Below, in pieces: positions 5,846 through 13,391 of a stretch of 64,000 nucleotides of DNA. The translations under genes and the position numbers were made by a program. This DNA is from an archaeon (lineage in GTDB: Archaea; Nanobdellota; Nanobdellia; Woesearchaeales; UBA9642), in the NCBI GenBank assembly GCA_020057295.1, contig JAGVGF010000003.1:62001-126000 (forward strand). The letters are read 5' to 3'. The notes under the pieces were generated by a model. The model made no database searches and was not told where the DNA came from. It worked only from the letters and a program-made list of their open reading frames with translations. The number at the start of each line of letters is the position of its first letter. Position 1 is the stretch's first letter.

Positions 5846-6364
5846 ATGAAGACATATTGCGAAGCTGTTAGGGGTTTACCTGAAGATAATGTTCACAGGA
5901 TTCATCATGACACGGAACACGGTTCAATGCCTGAAAGTGATGATGATATATTCAGAAGGTTAATTTTGGAAATTAATCAGGCAGGATTATCTTTTGATAT
6001 AGTTCTTAAAAAGAAGAAAACACTATATGAAGCATATCCTTCTATAGCTAAAGTTGCCAAATACACGCAAAAGGATATTAAGCGATTAATGAATAATTCT
6101 GGAATCATTAGAAATAGATTAAAAATAGAAGCCGCGATATACAATGCTAAGAAAATACAAGAATTACAAAAAGAATATGGGTCGTTGAGGAAATGGTTAG
6201 ATATAAATCATCCAAAAACTAAAGATGAATGGGTTAAATTATTCAAGAAAAATTTTAAATTTACTGGCGGAGAAATAATCAATGAATTCATGATGAGTAT
6301 ATGTTATTTGCCCGGAGCACATGTCAAAGGCTGTAAATTATATATTAACAGATTACATAAATGA
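5846..6364 (+). CDS. tag: DNA-3-methyladenine glycosylase I (Tag family)
   Basis: A 172-aa base-excision repair glycosylase removing alkylated adenine. Hallmarks are YC at residues 4-5, HHDTEHG (about 20) where bacterial Tag has YHDTEWG, LILEINQAGLSFDIVLKKK (about 40-58), and the C-terminal HVKGCK. The early Cys and His plus this last His/Cys pair match the zinc snap of Tag. The W-to-H change in the HDTE motif is unusual. The length is a little short of the usual ~185 aa. The start lacks an obvious ribosome site and is probably leaderless. Confidence 0.88.
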   Translation: MKTYCEAVRGLPEDNVHRIHHDTEHGSMPESDDDIFRRLILEINQAGLSFDIVLKKKKTLYEAYPSIAKVAKYTQKDIKRLMNNSGIIRNRLKIEAAIYNAKKIQELQKEYGSLRKWLDINHPKTKDEWVKLFKKNFKFTGGEIINEFMMSICYLPGAHVKGCKLYINRLHK

Positions 6365-6437
6365 TAATTTCAATCTTGTTAGAAGATATGGTCTTATTTA
6401 TATATCGATAAGATATTATAATATTAAAGGTGAAATC

Positions 6438-7175
6438 ATGAAATATGTTGAATATATATTATTAGGCTTATTTATTGCTGTAATTATTGTTTCTGGATGT
6501 GAGAACTCTATACAGACAGACAATCCACCATTTAACGCTCCATGTACTGCCGATGCAAAACTATGTTCTGATGGTACTTCTGTTGGAAGAAATGCAACTA
6601 ATAATTGCGAATTTAATCCTTGTAACGATATAATTTTGAATGAAAAAATATATGTGAGTAATGATACAGAGCAATGTAAAGTTATTAGATTTATGTGTGT
6701 TCAAGGAAAACAACCCTTTTCAAATGAAAATGGCTGTGGATGTGAGTCTATTCCAGCAAACAATTTAACAACAGGTAAATTAAAAACTTATGAATGCATT
6801 GATCCTAGACCAATTGCGTGTACAAAAGAATATATACCTGTATGCGGAAGAACAAACATACAATGTATTACAACGCCATGTAATCCTATAGATGAAACTT
6901 ACGCAAATAAATGCGAAGCATGTTCAAATAAGCTTGTGGATTATTATATAGAAGGTGTATGTCAAAAATCCGCTAGTGAATTGGAGGGACAATGTTTAAG
7001 TGTTAATGGAAGATGGCTTTCCGAGTCAAGAGAATGTGAAGGAATATCACAAGATCATTGCGAATTTATGGGTGGACAGTTTGATGAATGTGCAAGTGCA
7101 TGTAGAAATTATCCTCCAGATGTAAACAGGGCATGCACAATGCAATGTGTTCAAACGTGTCGTTTTAAAATATAA
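6438..7175 (+). CDS. Cys-rich surface lipoprotein with Kazal-like domain
   Basis: I use the ATG at 6438 (AAAGGTG site 12 nt upstream), not the track start, giving 245 aa. The N-terminus is a lipoprotein signal: a hydrophobic stretch ending VSGC with Cys21 as the likely lipidation site. A CTADAKLCSDGTSVGR block follows (about 36-51), then a Kazal-type domain at about 128-175 with spaced cysteines and the signature PVCGRT...TYANKCEA. A Cys-rich tail completes it. Kazal domains inhibit serine proteases in other organisms; a protective or partner-binding role outside the cell is inference. Confidence 0.75.
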   Translation: MKYVEYILLGLFIAVIIVSGCENSIQTDNPPFNAPCTADAKLCSDGTSVGRNATNNCEFNPCNDIILNEKIYVSNDTEQCKVIRFMCVQGKQPFSNENGCGCESIPANNLTTGKLKTYECIDPRPIACTKEYIPVCGRTNIQCITTPCNPIDETYANKCEACSNKLVDYYIEGVCQKSASELEGQCLSVNGRWLSESRECEGISQDHCEFMGGQFDECASACRNYPPDVNRACTMQCVQTCRFKI

Positions 7176-7572: not shown

Positions 7573-8097
7573 ATGCGTAACAAGTATGTAGGAATAATTG
7601 TTGTTGGTATTTCCTTGCTTATAGGATTTTTAGTATGGTTATTCAATAAATCATTATCAACTATTGTTAACGATAGTTGTAGTCATGGTCCTACATGTCC
7701 TATGTGGGGAAGTATAAGTTTTCAGACTAATGTGGGTTTAGGATTAATGGTTTTTGTAACAGTCGTCGGTTTGTATTTAATATTTTTTGCTAAGGATGAT
7801 CCACAGATAATCAGGGAAGTTCATAGAGAAACAAAAATTGTCAAGGAACAAGTTAAGCCTCGAACTTTAAGTAAAGGGCATTATAGAGATATTTTAGAAA
7901 AATTAGAAGGTGATGATAAGAAAGTTCTTAGTTTAATTATAGATTCTGAAGGTTCTGTATTTCAATCAGAGATAGTTTCAAAAATCGGATTAACAAAAGT
8001 TAAAGTAACAAGAATTCTAGATCGATTAGAAGGTAAAGGTCTTATAGAAAGAAAGAGACGTGGAATGACTAATGTTGTTATACTAAAAAATAATTGA
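7573..8097 (+). CDS. Membrane-bound winged-helix regulator with Cys/His/Met external loop
   Basis: A 174-aa protein with TM helices at about 5-26 and 54-72 and a C-terminal winged helix (about 103-172: two helices, then GLTKVKVTRILDRLEGKGLIERKRRG), as in MarR-like archaeal regulators. The loop between the TMs, predicted outside the cell, contains CSHGPTCPM (C36, H38, C42, M44), all good Cu(I) ligands. It sits immediately upstream of the copper operon. The start is leaderless: TTTAAATA lies about 26 nt upstream. A copper-sensing transcription factor is inferred from the motif and context; metal binding is not shown. Confidence 0.75.
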   Translation: MRNKYVGIIVVGISLLIGFLVWLFNKSLSTIVNDSCSHGPTCPMWGSISFQTNVGLGLMVFVTVVGLYLIFFAKDDPQIIREVHRETKIVKEQVKPRTLSKGHYRDILEKLEGDDKKVLSLIIDSEGSVFQSEIVSKIGLTKVKVTRILDRLEGKGLIERKRRGMTNVVILKNN

Positions 8098-8237: not shown

Positions 8238-9053
8238 ATGAAAGATTTTATTATTAAGAGAAAATTTGCAGTAATACTAACATGTATATTGCTTATAGTT
8301 GGTACAACACTATATTTTACATTGGGTGCTTACAATCTTGGAGAAATGTCAATAAAAAGCGCAGCTACAATTGAAGAATTAAATGTATTACGTAATGTCC
8401 AATTGAAAGCAGCATATACTGAAGAAGGTAGTATAGATATGTTTGTTCTTGCAAGAAATAATGATCTATCTAAGATTAAACCATTACAAGGTAATTCTAT
8501 ACCCGAAATAGGTGGTATGGTTATAGGTAATGTCGAAGGATCGATGATGCAAGAAGAAAACGAGTTTAAGAATATAGGAGATACTTTAGTTGATTATGAT
8601 ATTACTTTTAGAATTGATGGAATTCTTGATAAGACAGGAACATTCATGGATGATTTTCATTTTATAAGTTCAGAAGAATACACTAAACTATCTGGTGAAG
8701 AAAATGTTTTATTTGTAAAGTTCAAAGATGCAAAAACTCCCAAACTATTTTATTTGTACGATAAGAATAATCCTTCACCAGCGAAAATATCTTTATCAGA
8801 AGGTAATATAAATTTTTACTACAAACATATTATCGGCAAAAAAATCTATTATCCTATAATCATTGGCTATGAAGAGGCTAAGATGATGCGTGAAGAAAAA
8901 TTATTCAATAAAGTAGGAGATACTCTTGAAGGATTTTTTGATAGAGATGTTATGATTGTCGGAATAACACAAAAAACAGATACGGGCTTAGATATGATGC
9001 ATGTTGTAGAAAAAGATTTTTTCGATGAATCATTAAGAGGAACATTAGTATAG
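8238..9053 (+). CDS. Membrane-anchored extracytoplasmic protein with duplicated MacB-PCD-like module
   Basis: A 271-aa protein, first gene of the copper operon, with ribosome site AGGGTG. One N-terminal TM helix (about 10-30) anchors a large external part. Residues 92-144 and 205-257 are an internal repeat with matching elements: V/IIG, MM.EE, F..GDTL, I.GI..KT.T, then D..H. Each unit ends like the GDxxxxxxxxxxVxGI segment of MacB/FtsX periplasmic core domains. Paired methionines (MM three times) are notable. No permease TM helices are present, so it is not an FtsX permease. A role in copper binding or delivery is inferred from the operon only. Confidence 0.65.
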   Translation: MKDFIIKRKFAVILTCILLIVGTTLYFTLGAYNLGEMSIKSAATIEELNVLRNVQLKAAYTEEGSIDMFVLARNNDLSKIKPLQGNSIPEIGGMVIGNVEGSMMQEENEFKNIGDTLVDYDITFRIDGILDKTGTFMDDFHFISSEEYTKLSGEENVLFVKFKDAKTPKLFYLYDKNNPSPAKISLSEGNINFYYKHIIGKKIYYPIIIGYEEAKMMREEKLFNKVGDTLEGFFDRDVMIVGITQKTDTGLDMMHVVEKDFFDESLRGTLV

Positions 9054-9061
9054 GTGAAAAT

Positions 9062-9271
9062 ATGAAAGATATTGAATTAAAACTTAAAGGAATGCATTGC
9101 AAAAGTTGTGTGATATTAGTTAATGATGCCTTAACAGATATTAAAGGTGTAAAATCTGCAAATGCCAATTTAGAGAAGAGTAATGTAAAGATATCATTTG
9201 ATGATAATTTAGTAAAAGAAAAGCAATTGATTGACGCGATTGAAAAAGAGGGCTATAAGGTGAATAAATAA
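9062..9271 (+). CDS. copZ: Copper chaperone, heavy-metal-associated domain
   Basis: A 69-aa stand-alone HMA domain with ferredoxin-like fold; GMHCKSC (C13, C16) binds Cu(I). It would carry copper to the ATPase encoded next, whose start codon overlaps this stop by one base (TAATG). It begins 8 nt after the preceding stop with a GGTG site. The metal could also be Ag(I); zinc is less likely given the partner. Confidence 0.9.
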
Positions 9272-11505
9272 TGGCAAAGAAGACAGATCTTAATATTGTA
9301 GGAATGCATTGCGCAAGTTGTTCTACACTAATAAATAGAGCTTTATCGAAGACTGAAGGAATAACGGAAGCAAATGTTAATTATGCTACAGCTAAAGCAC
9401 GCGTAGTTTATGATGAAAATAAAGTCTCTGAAGAGGACTTAATAAAAATTGTTCAATCTAAAGGTTACGATGCATCTATTAGCAGTAAAAATGATGCTGT
9501 TAATAAAGAATTATCTCAGAAAAAAGAAATTGAGGAAATAAAGAATAGCTTATATTTTAGTTTAATATTTACGATTCCAGCATTTTTAATCGGAATGGTC
9601 TTAATGTCGCTTGGTGTTAATGTTCCTTACGATCTATTTATATTATTCTTACTTGCAACACCGGTTCAATTTATTGTAGCATCAGATATCTACAAAAGTG
9701 CATGGGTCGCATTAAAAAATAAGACTGCAAATATGGATTCTTTAATAGCCATAGGAACTAGTGCAGCATACTTGTTTAGTATTTATGCAATATTTTTTGA
9801 TCCTATTCTTGGTCAATATTTTGAAACATCAGCAATTCTTATAACTTTTGTAATATTTGGAAGATATCTTGAAATTAATGCTAAAGGTAAAACATCCGAG
9901 GCAATAAAGAAACTTATGGAATTATCACCAAAAATAGCGACAGTTATTAGAAAAATTAACGGAAAAAATAAAGAAATGCAGATACCTGTAGATCAAGTAG
10001 TTTTGAATGATATTATCATCGTAAAACCTGGAGAAAAAGTTCCAGTTGATGGAATCCTGTTAGAAGGATTATCTTCTGTCGATGAAAGTATGATTACAGG
10101 AGAGAGCATCCCCGTAGAAAAAAAGAAAGGAGATACAGTAATAGGCGGAACAATAAACAAACACGGAACTTTTACATTTAAGGCAACGAAAGTAGGCGAA
10201 AATACTACTCTTGCAAATATAATAAAATTAATTGAAGATGCTCAAGGAAAGAAAGCTCCAATACAAAGATTTGCGGATAATATTTCTGCATATTTTGTGC
10301 CTGTAGTAATACTTATTGCGATTGTAACATTTAGTGTGTGGTTTTTCTGGGTAGGAAAACCCATAGCATTTGCACTGATTACAGCAGTTTCAGTATTAGT
10401 AATCGCATGTCCTTGTGCTTTAGGTCTTGCAACACCTACATCAATAATTGTGGGAACAGGAAAAGGTGCGAAAGAGGGAATACTAATTAAAGGAGCAGAT
10501 TCTCTTGAAGCAGCACACAAAGTTAAATATGTTATATTTGATAAAACAGGAACTATAACTAATGGTAAACCAGAAACAACTGACGTGATATCTTTTGAGA
10601 AGAGCATATCTCAAGATTCATTACTAAAGATAGCAGCATCTATAGAAAAACCTTCAGAACATCCTCTTGCAGATGCAATAGTCAGAAAGGCAAACGAAGA
10701 AAAATTAGCTATAATAAAAATTAAGAATTTTAAAGCAATACCAGGTTATGGAATTTCTGCGAAGATATCAAGCAAGCAATATTATTTTGGAAATACTAAA
10801 TTAATGCAGAAACAAAAAATTTCTGTAAGTAAATATGAAAGCAGAATTCAAGATATTGAAGAACAAGGAAAAACTGTAATGATATTATCTAATACAAAGA
10901 AAATTCTTGGAATAATCGCTGTTGCCGATACTATTAAGGAAACATCAAAACTTGCTGTAAAACAATTACAAGATATGGGTGTTGAAGTTTATCTAATTAC
11001 AGGAGATAATGTTAGAACTGCAGGAGCAATTGCAAAGCAGGCAGGTATAAAGCAAGATAATGTATTTTCTGAAGTCCTTCCTGAAGATAAGGCAAACTAT
11101 GTGAAGAAATTGCAGGATAAAAAAGATAAAAAGGGAAATTTTGCAAAAGTTGTAATGGTTGGTGATGGTGTAAATGATGCTCCAGCACTTGCACAGGCCG
11201 ATATTGGAATTGCAATGGGATCTGGAACAGATGTTGCTATGGAGTCAGGAAATATTGTATTAATGAAAAATGACTTACTTGATGTTCCAAAAGCGATCAA
11301 GTTAAGCAAACAAACCATGACTAAAATAAAACAGAACATGTTCTGGGCATTATTTTACAATGTCTTAGGAATACCAATAGCGGCAGGAGTACTGTATCCT
11401 TTTACAGGATGGCTTCTAAGCCCTATAATCGCTGGTGGAGCAATGGCACTTTCAAGCGTTAGTGTTGTAACAAATAGTTTATTGTTAAAGAGTTCAAAAT
11501 TGTAA
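9271..11505 (+). CDS. copA: Cu(I)-exporting P1B-type ATPase
   Basis: A 744-aa P1B-1 ATPase of usual length that pumps Cu(I) out of the cytoplasm. In order it has an N-terminal HMA domain (GMHCASC, C14/C17), TM helices, the actuator TGES (about 276), the transport motif [10 protein letters not shown] (about 379), the phosphorylation site DKTGT (about 424) and the hinge [10 protein letters not shown] (about 630). The CPC motif indicates Cu(I)/Ag(I). Translation is coupled to copZ by a one-base overlap. Downstream are a Met-rich membrane protein and cupredoxins. Confidence 0.95.
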
Positions 11506-11543: not shown

Positions 11544-12251
11544 ATGGTTAAAAATGAAAATTTAAATAAGAAAAAGCTTATGGCATTAAAATTTACAGAC
11601 AGCAATAAAATGTATTCTTATATGTTAGTTGCTTTCTTAGTATTATTAATATTAGATTTGATTGCATATTTTGGTTTTTTAAATAGAATTCCTGATTTTG
11701 CAAACAAATTCGGTTTCTGGATTTTTTATTTGAATATTAGTATCGTCACAATTGGTGGTTCTGTATGGTATTATGTAACTCACAAAGGTTATGTAAGCTG
11801 TATGGCTAGCATGATGATTGGAATGACTATAGGAATGCAAACTGGAATGATGATTGGAGCAGTATTCGGAGCTGTTAATGGATATTTTGTTGGTGCAATG
11901 GTCGGCATGATTCTTGGTGCATTAACAGGAGCGTTAAGCGGTAAAGATAGTATAATGGGATGGCTTCAGGGAATGATGATGGGATTAATGGGTGGAACAA
12001 TGGGTGCAATGATTACTGTAATGATGTTCACAGATAATGTATTATGGTTCATGCCATTCTATACTATACTCAATGTCTTATTGTTATTAGGATTTAATTA
12101 CATGTATTATGATGAAGTTGTAAGAGATAATAAAGAATTAATTAAAACAGATATAGATATTTTCACATTCATATCTGCATGTGTAATAGTAACTACTATC
12201 TTAACTGTTTTAATGATTTATGCACCAAAATCGGTGCTGTTCGGAGGATAA
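11544..12251 (+). CDS. Met-rich glycine-zipper membrane protein in the copper operon
   Basis: A 235-aa integral membrane protein with about six hydrophobic segments. Residues about 86-160 are packed with Met and Gly (for example ASMMIGMTIGMQTGMMIGA and LQGMMMGLMGGTMGAM) with glycine spacings typical of tightly packed helices. Methionine-lined helices are known in Cu(I) transport proteins such as Ctr1, but this sequence is not Ctr1-like in length or layout. It follows copA by 38 nt with an AGGTGAT site. A Cu(I) channel or binding role is inferred; I do not recognise the family. Confidence 0.65.
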   Translation: MVKNENLNKKKLMALKFTDSNKMYSYMLVAFLVLLILDLIAYFGFLNRIPDFANKFGFWIFYLNISIVTIGGSVWYYVTHKGYVSCMASMMIGMTIGMQTGMMIGAVFGAVNGYFVGAMVGMILGALTGALSGKDSIMGWLQGMMMGLMGGTMGAMITVMMFTDNVLWFMPFYTILNVLLLLGFNYMYYDEVVRDNKELIKTDIDIFTFISACVIVTTILTVLMIYAPKSVLFGG

Positions 12252-12252
12252 A

Positions 12253-12849
12253 ATGAAAGATGTTTCAAAAATAATATTAGGAATAGTTGCGAGTTTAATA
12301 GTTATATCGGTGTTAGGACTATCTGCTAAAGCTCTAGTTTCGCCGACATTCTTGTCAACAAACAACTACGGCAATAATGGTGCACAGGTATCGCAAACAC
12401 AAAATACTTTATCAGGAAATACTCAAATTAATACTCAGACATCGCCCTTAGTTCAAGGAAATGTTCAAGAGGTTTCTCTTAAAGTTGTAGGTTCATCATA
12501 TGTTTTGAATCCTTCAGTACTAAAGAAAGGAGTTCCAGTTAGAATGACCGCAGATATTAATAATATGCCTGGTTGTTCTAAAGGTTTTAGAATTCCAGAC
12601 TTTAGTGTTACAAAGTCTATCCGTCCAGGAGATACTGTTGTAGAATTTACTCCTGATAAAACAGGAACATTTACGATTGCGTGTTTTATGAATATGTACC
12701 GTGGAACATTTAGTGTTACTGATGATGGAAGTGCTCCAACTGGAGAAGCGGCAAAGCAAGCAACACAAGTTCAAGCAACAGTTGCAAAACCAAGCGGTGG
12801 CGGATGTACAATGGGTGCGGGTGGCGGTGGCTGCGGTTGTGGTGGATAA
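12253..12849 (+). CDS. Secreted cupredoxin-like protein with Cys/Gly tail
   Basis: I use the ATG at 12253 (TCGGAGG site), one base after the previous stop, giving 198 aa. A hydrophobic N-terminal segment (about 5-25) exports or anchors it; a Ser/Thr/Asn/Gln linker follows (about 30-72), then a cupredoxin-like beta domain (about 73-152). Candidate ligands are the Cys in PGCSK and the Cys and Mets in ACFMNMYRG, so the site looks thiolate/thioether-type rather than the classical His2-Cys-Met. The tail ends GGGCTMGAGGGGCGCGG, a second likely metal site. It is paralogous to the next gene. Confidence 0.75.
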   Translation: MKDVSKIILGIVASLIVISVLGLSAKALVSPTFLSTNNYGNNGAQVSQTQNTLSGNTQINTQTSPLVQGNVQEVSLKVVGSSYVLNPSVLKKGVPVRMTADINNMPGCSKGFRIPDFSVTKSIRPGDTVVEFTPDKTGTFTIACFMNMYRGTFSVTDDGSAPTGEAAKQATQVQATVAKPSGGGCTMGAGGGGCGCGG

Positions 12850-12890: not shown

Positions 12891-13391
12891 ATGACTGATG
12901 ATAAAATAAGATGTGAGCTTTGTGATAGAGAATTTGCTAGTCAGGAAGCTATAGATGCACATAACAAATCTAAACATCACACTATTCACAGAGAAAAACG
13001 CAATAAATTTCCAACTATAATTATATCAGTTACAGCAATAATAATTCTTATTATAATAGGATTTGTAATATTTAGTACTACGGTTAATAAACCTATTAAT
13101 ACAAATAATACTTCCTCATCAGGCAACGTTCAAACAGCCACACTAAGTGTTTCTGGATCTAAATATATACTTGAGCCTTCTGTTTTTAAGAAAGATGTTC
13201 CTGTACAATTAACCGCAGATGTTAGTAGTATGCCTGGTTGTTCTAAATCTGTAACTATACCAACATTTGGTGTATTAAAATATGTTACGCCTAACGATAA
13301 CACCATAACATTCACACCGACAAAGGTAGGAACGTTTAGAATAGCATGTTCAATGAGCATGTATATAGGAAGTTTTACAGTTACAGAATAA
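12891..13391 (+). CDS. C2H2 zinc finger - TM - cupredoxin fusion
   Basis: A 166-aa protein with three parts: an N-terminal C2H2 finger (C8-x2-C11-x12-H24-x4-H29), a basic stretch and one TM helix (about 41-63), then a cupredoxin-like domain (about 85-166) sharing PGCSK and AC.M.MY.G.F with its neighbour. The basic residues before the TM predict the finger inside and the cupredoxin outside. It is last in the copper operon, 41 nt after the previous gene, with a GGTG site. It could signal external copper to a DNA- or protein-binding finger; this is inference. No gap or frameshift suggests an artefactual fusion. Confidence 0.8.
   Translation: MTDDKIRCELCDREFASQEAIDAHNKSKHHTIHREKRNKFPTIIISVTAIIILIIIGFVIFSTTVNKPINTNNTSSSGNVQTATLSVSGSKYILEPSVFKKDVPVQLTADVSSMPGCSKSVTIPTFGVLKYVTPNDNTITFTPTKVGTFRIACSMSMYIGSFTVTE

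Follow-up and report, generated by a model that had tools for sequence, protein, structure and literature searches.

The window analysed here, a stretch of 64,000 nucleotides from a Woesearchaeales archaeon, contains a copper locus in which genes for a CopZ-like chaperone and a CopA-type ATPase are followed by genes for a Met/Gly-rich membrane protein and two cupredoxin proteins, and which also has a gene for a membrane-bound wHTH regulator (Table 1). The second cupredoxin gene closes the locus, as the earlier note had stated, and the next gene lies on the opposite strand. This gene starts with ATG, and its product has the unusual order of domains that the note had read from it, namely a C2H2 finger, a TM helix and a cupredoxin, together with all the motifs named there (C8/C11/H24/H29, PGCSK at residues 115-119 and ACSMSM at residues 152-157). 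A miscalled start or frame was ruled out, since full-length relatives share the boundaries of the gene.

Table 1. Features of the copper locus and parts of its finger-bearing cupredoxin protein (positions in the window).
Feature	Position	Strand	Basis
2-TM membrane-bound wHTH (MarR/DUF7343) regulator, CSHGPTCPM loop between the TMs	7573..8097	+	Pfam; conserved; co-located with cupredoxin genes
CopZ-like HMA copper chaperone	9062..9271	+	Pfam HMA, E 1.5e-15
CopA-type P1B ATPase (HMA, E1-E2 ATPase, hydrolase)	9271..11505	+	Pfam
Met/Gly-rich multi-TM membrane protein (MIGMTIGMQTGMM) of the copper locus	11544..12251	+	ORF; homologous-looking ORF in L019
Fingerless cupredoxin paralogue with Cys/Gly C-terminal tail (GGGCGCGG)	12220..12849	+	54% identical in cupredoxin domain
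Whole gene: C2H2 finger, basic linker, TM, CupA-like cupredoxin; 166 aa	12891..13391	+	ORF; whole-length alignment with full-length relatives
C2H2 finger, residues 7-30; predicted Zn ligands C8/C11/H24/H29, C-x2-C-x12-H-x4-H	12909..12980	+	Pfam zf-C2H2_jaz, E 6.1e-6; invariant ligands; beta-beta-alpha model; Foldseek C2H2 matches
Basic juxtamembrane linker, residues 31-41	12981..13013	+	Sequence; charge asymmetry across 79 head proteins
Single TM helix, about residues 42-64	13014..13082	+	Hydropathy 3.3 over 19 residues; helix 42-64 in model
N/S/T-rich flexible spacer, residues 65-80	13083..13130	+	Low pLDDT at 66-77; sequence
CupA-like cupredoxin, residues 81-166; predicted Cu(I) ligands C117/C153/M155/M157	13131..13388	+	CupA profile match; pLDDT about 87-95; Foldseek 4f2f/4f2e; ligands as in PMC5646241

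Among the neighbouring genes, the L019 ORF resembling the Met/Gly-rich protein overlaps the start of a cupredoxin gene. The Gly/Cys tail of the fingerless cupredoxin is conserved, being found in the window and also in L007, L009, L011, L013 and L063, and is possibly an extra copper-binding tail. The copper locus is headed by a gene for a protein of 271 aa (8238-9053, + strand), which has no match in Pfam or NCBIfam and has similar-looking ORFs in L063 (2440-3270) and perhaps in L148 (3964-4824). Further upstream lies a gene (6321-7175, + strand) whose Cys-rich product looks exported and has a Kazal-like stretch (YIPVCG...TYANKCEACS), as judged by eye.

The cupredoxin domain is of the pneumococcal CupA/CopA-MBD type, and Cu(I) binding is predicted for it. 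Pfam Cupredoxin_1 matches residues 68-164 with an E-value of 4.6e-4 and 20.6 bits, under its gathering score of 27, but the assignment is secure because both a profile and the fold lead to the same structures. With a profile of seven full-length relatives, the nearest solved structures were CupA (2mry/4f2e, E 6.7e-13) and the CopA metal-binding domain (4f2f, E 2.1e-11); the full-length AlphaFold model is confident over the domain in every ten-residue block, and Foldseek with this model placed 4f2f and 4f2e at ranks 1 and 2 (target-normalised TM 0.73/0.66). In CupA, a membrane-anchored Cu(I) chaperone of Streptococcus pneumoniae, the high-affinity site S1 is formed by C74/C111 and the low-affinity site S2 by C74/M113/M115 (PMC5646241). 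The cysteine pair of S1 aligns with C117/C153 and the methionine pair of S2 with M155/M157, all invariant in the finger-bearing relatives, so that the thiolate-type cupredoxin proposed in the earlier note can be specified as a CupA-type site with all four ligands matched. CupA also resembles the present protein in its cupredoxin fold, its N-terminal membrane anchor and its place in a copA operon; unlike it, CupA has no finger, and the CopA of the window has an HMA metal-binding domain, not a cupredoxin.

The finger, linker and TM helix together form the head of the protein. The match of zf-C2H2_jaz to residues 7-30 (26.7 bits) is above the gathering score of 22.6, and the classical pattern C-x2-4-C-x3-F-x5-L-x2-H-x3-5-H fits residues 8-29, where I takes the place of Leu; the C, F and H positions do not vary across 23 diverse heads. 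In the genome from which the window comes, zf-C2H2_6 has a single match, which is this gene. In the full-length AlphaFold run, which had a shallow alignment, the finger was poorly modelled (pLDDT 52-64 for residues 1-30). A head-only AlphaFold2 run on a 16-head alignment gave strands at 6-7 and 14-15, a helix at 18-28, the linker and the TM helix, with a pLDDT of 84-88 over residues 11-30, and structure prediction agrees with a beta-beta-alpha finger followed by a TM helix and a confidently folded cupredoxin. Foldseek matched the head to C2H2 fingers without exception; many of these superpose at 0.4-1.1 A on about 26-29 residues, and their E-values, above 0.1, are weak because the head is so short. 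The finger is predicted to bind zinc and the cupredoxin to bind copper.

The orientation of the protein is suggested by its charges. Over the 79 head proteins described below, the 15 residues preceding the TM helix carry a net charge of +4.7 on average, against -0.5 after it, and the charge before exceeds the charge after in 78/79, which favours the topology of the earlier note, with the finger inside and the cupredoxin outside. The charge rule thus puts the cupredoxin outside, whereas CupA is modelled as giving Cu(I) to the metal-binding domain of CopA on the cytoplasmic side. This strong positive-inside asymmetry, together with a constant spacing between finger and TM helix (median gap of 17 in the 79 proteins), would also be expected if the head were purely a device for topology and insertion, in which a fast-folding finger and a basic linker, with no specific ligand, keep the N-terminal end inside the cell and retain the protein at the membrane by a signal anchor that is not cleaved. 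Ordinary signal anchors, however, need no domain, and the pattern of conservation in the finger (see below) makes this explanation rather unlikely.

A search with the whole protein in 99 related genomes found six other proteins with finger, TM helix and cupredoxin (G001, G002, G040, G043, G078 and G083), and wider searches added finger-cupredoxins in L066, G234, G354 and G624, giving eleven in all; the named relatives are MAGs of Woesearchaeota and Pacearchaeota. Residues C8, C11, H24, H29, C117, C153, M155 and M157 are invariant in all eight full-length finger-cupredoxin sequences (the window and seven relatives), so the protein is not a product of chance. Many other cupredoxin relatives, including the adjacent paralogue, are fingerless, and these are likewise anchored or exported, which fits a head that serves for topology only. 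Every cupredoxin relative that was read has an intact finger or none at all, and degenerate fingers were not found. The earlier note had taken relatives without the finger, or with degenerate zinc ligands, as signs of an incidental tail; the former exist and the latter were not seen, and the intact-or-absent pattern speaks for a conserved finger. In the copper locus of G001, the finger protein is adjoined by a cupredoxin paralogue (L063:7076-7861) that has a TFIIB-like zinc-ribbon head in place of the C2H2 finger, with a weak Pfam ribbon match (E 0.005). As this head is not homologous to the finger but has the same cargo, one small zinc domain may serve as well as another, again as expected of a pure topology device.

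Searches with the head found this unit of finger, linker and TM helix on 79 distinct proteins, only 11 of them with a cupredoxin. These proteins were gathered by profile searches with the head only, partly by motif, and by reading of the matching ORFs, and they occur in Woesearchaeota, Pacearchaeota and Nanohaloarchaea with at least eight kinds of exported domain; the head is not confined to one class, since two nanohaloarchaeal loci (L075 and L076) carry it. With cargo classes outside the Pfam-tested members assigned by simple motifs, the most frequent cargo is an unnamed His-rich HxH domain (HWHPH...HTHD..., 26/79), followed by VKOR-type thioredoxin (21/79), DUF3105 or like (13/79), cupredoxin (11/79), DsbA/Thioredoxin_4 (3/79), Trx+DsbA (2/79), AhpC/TSA (1/79) and DUF1573 (1/79), while one truncated copy (1/79) has no assigned cargo. 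A head specific to copper is ruled out by the seven other cargo types. The spacing C-x2-C-x12-H-x4-H is kept in 75/79 of the head fingers, and a different type, mostly H-x3-H, is seen in the small soluble C2H2 proteins that were sampled from the same class. A search with the DUF3105 tail had matches in 2/118 genomes, both finger-headed, which are too few for judging whether headless forms occur there. In the finger-headed HxH family (L040, L044, L046-L055, L070, L089 and others), the motif continues as HWHPH...HTHD...IHLE with a C-x4-C pair, and no Pfam or NCBIfam name was obtained for the domain in the members tested.

Conservation of the finger extends beyond its zinc site. The ligands are constant over 77 aligned fingers, which is partly a product of how the set was selected, because heads were collected by profile and partly by motif; the cupredoxin relatives, in turn, were found with the whole protein, and their ligand invariance is free of that selection. 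Among non-ligand positions of the 77 fingers, K/R is present at 6 (73), F at 8 (74) and K at 21 (73), and in the helix S/T is found at -1 (59), E/D at 2 (66), A/S/G at 3 (75), L at 4 (67) and Q/M at 6 (59); variation is seen at positions 1 and 5 of the helix and in the linker. Helix capping may account for part of the conservation at -1 and 2. The recognition positions -1, 2, 3 and 6 are thus conserved across eight cargo types, where those of C2H2 transcription factors would be expected to diversify with the regulated gene, and the shared face speaks against a separate operator for each finger. Since a non-ligand face is kept over eight cargo types, one shared ligand is indicated, and the conservation of K21, K/R6 and helix position 6 across cargos exceeds what a mere plug would need, which weighs against a head without a specific ligand. 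With ligands and face kept in relatives and across cargos, a finger that is a chance or incidental tail was ruled out.

A tree of the heads requires 25 cargo changes against a minimum of 7, although it is poorly resolved (66 columns, 49/75 forks open). In a supported clade (95), a DsbA head is nested among HxH heads of the same family, and in G301 a DsbA gene and an HxH gene are adjacent with near-alike heads (L054, C36, about 9182-10700), which looks like a recent duplication or swap of the head. The five cupredoxin heads nearest to the window form a clade of their own (100), and as the cupredoxin members keep their own head subtype, a role specific to this cargo would also fit.

The earlier note had suggested that the protein couples external copper loading to a response in the cytosol, in which case it would be a membrane-tethered regulator whose finger, altered by copper loading outside, binds DNA, RNA or protein and changes expression. 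The strict conservation of the finger ligands in the cupredoxin members is compatible with this, and 7/11 finger-cupredoxins lie in copper loci (the window, L063 of G001, L067, L066, L148, L149 and L150), that of L067 directly after CopA. A regulator of comparable layout has also been proposed for zinc-ribbon-TM-YARHG proteins of Gram-positive bacteria, which have a cytosolic zinc domain, thought to be a nucleic-acid binder, one TM helix and an extracellular domain, but differ in having a ribbon pair (CxxC...CxxC) against one classical C2H2 finger and a peptidoglycan-type cargo, and in being bacterial (PMC3355149). Moreover, a DNA-binding C2H2-like finger is known from the archaeal virus protein AFV1p06, likewise a single classical finger fold from the archaeal world, which unlike the present head is soluble, has Glu as its fourth ligand and is without a TM helix (PMC3541406).

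This coupling was nevertheless not borne out, and we regard it as improbable. The same finger face is found on cargos unrelated to copper, at least seven of the exported domains under the head being other than cupredoxin; 3 to 4 of 11 members lie outside copper loci (G002, G043 and G083, as well as G078, on a short contig without copper genes); and the copper paralogue in the same operon has no finger. Furthermore, the protein has a lone finger on a flexible linker, where a C2H2 transcription factor would have at least two fingers or a specificity extension, and in the model the TM helix and the cupredoxin are joined by the low-confidence spacer only, with no helical coupling element. The operon also holds its own conserved membrane-bound wHTH regulator, relatives of which (L162-L181) lie within 6 kb of 24/42 cupredoxin places in related genomes. 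This protein, with its wHTH in the cytosol, is likely the one-component copper or thiol sensor of the locus, and it is a better candidate for a copper sensor than a single finger.

Because the same finger-anchor piece occurs on many exported proteins, the finger seems to be a common cap for docking or anchoring and not a copper switch. The gene product is probably a portable N-in/C-out anchor of this kind, that is, a type-II single-pass membrane protein in which, outside the cell, the CupA-like cupredoxin would hold Cu(I) via two cysteines and two methionines and would probably receive, buffer or pass on copper within the CopA/CopZ export locus. Inside the cell, the single C2H2 finger would cap the anchor. 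The finger would most likely dock to a cytosolic partner shared by all these heads, either a protein or an RNA (for example a factor in membrane insertion, assembly or scaffolding), or would at the least fix the N-in topology, and it would not read out copper. The head itself is a portable module that many envelope proteins of these archaea have in common, among them thiol/disulfide, copper and His-rich ones. The gene neighbourhoods are consistent with this, as the finger-cupredoxin of G043 is one gene away from a DsbA gene and finger-headed DUF3105, HxH and Trx proteins (L069-L073) have DsbA-type, DsbB, DsbD_TM or TlpA-like genes within about 3 kb, and Dsb-type and copper neighbours together indicate that the head is part of the general handling of thiols and copper in the envelope. 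The same Dsb-type neighbours, and cargos that are nearly all thiol/disulfide or metal proteins, might also suit a zinc buffer or a zinc/redox sensor, in which the thiolate finger would respond in the cytosol to zinc or to the thiol state and adjust the envelope redox or copper protein fused to it; as no conserved signalling element is present between finger and exported domain, this seems very unlikely. As a tentative extension of the docking-cap reading, which we would put at somewhat below even chances, anchoring could be DPANN-type and lineage-wide, with one cytosolic receptor recognising the single conserved C2H2 'plug' of numerous envelope proteins for redox and copper that are otherwise unrelated, and gathering or inserting them at the membrane via a zinc-finger code.

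C2H2 fingers are usually regarded as eukaryotic DNA or RNA readers. The archaea considered here have small genomes, and in them one conserved finger type caps the inner end of many exported proteins of the thiol, copper and His-rich kinds. Should a partner common to these heads be identified, it would reveal how oxidative folding and the handling of copper are organised at their membrane, and why a typical eukaryotic domain is retained there. In the open-access literature, we found no description of a classical C2H2 finger as a cap common to many archaeal redox and copper cargos, and nothing on C2H2 fingers in connection with Woesearchaeota or DPANN. The general layout of zinc domain, TM and exported domain is already known (PMC3355149, PMC4628341). 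For instance, zinc binding and membrane topology have been measured for Llmg_0524 and Llmg_0526 of Lactococcus, which also have an N-terminal cytosolic zinc-binding Cys motif beside one or more TMs, but which differ in their four-Cys CX2CX10CX2C motif, another exported part and the lack of a copper domain (PMC4628341).

A distinct architecture was also observed in L059, L060 and L079-L083, in which a C2HC-type finger is followed by TM helices and a Cys-rich exported tail, and in L059, L079 and L080 this finger is preceded by zinc ribbons.
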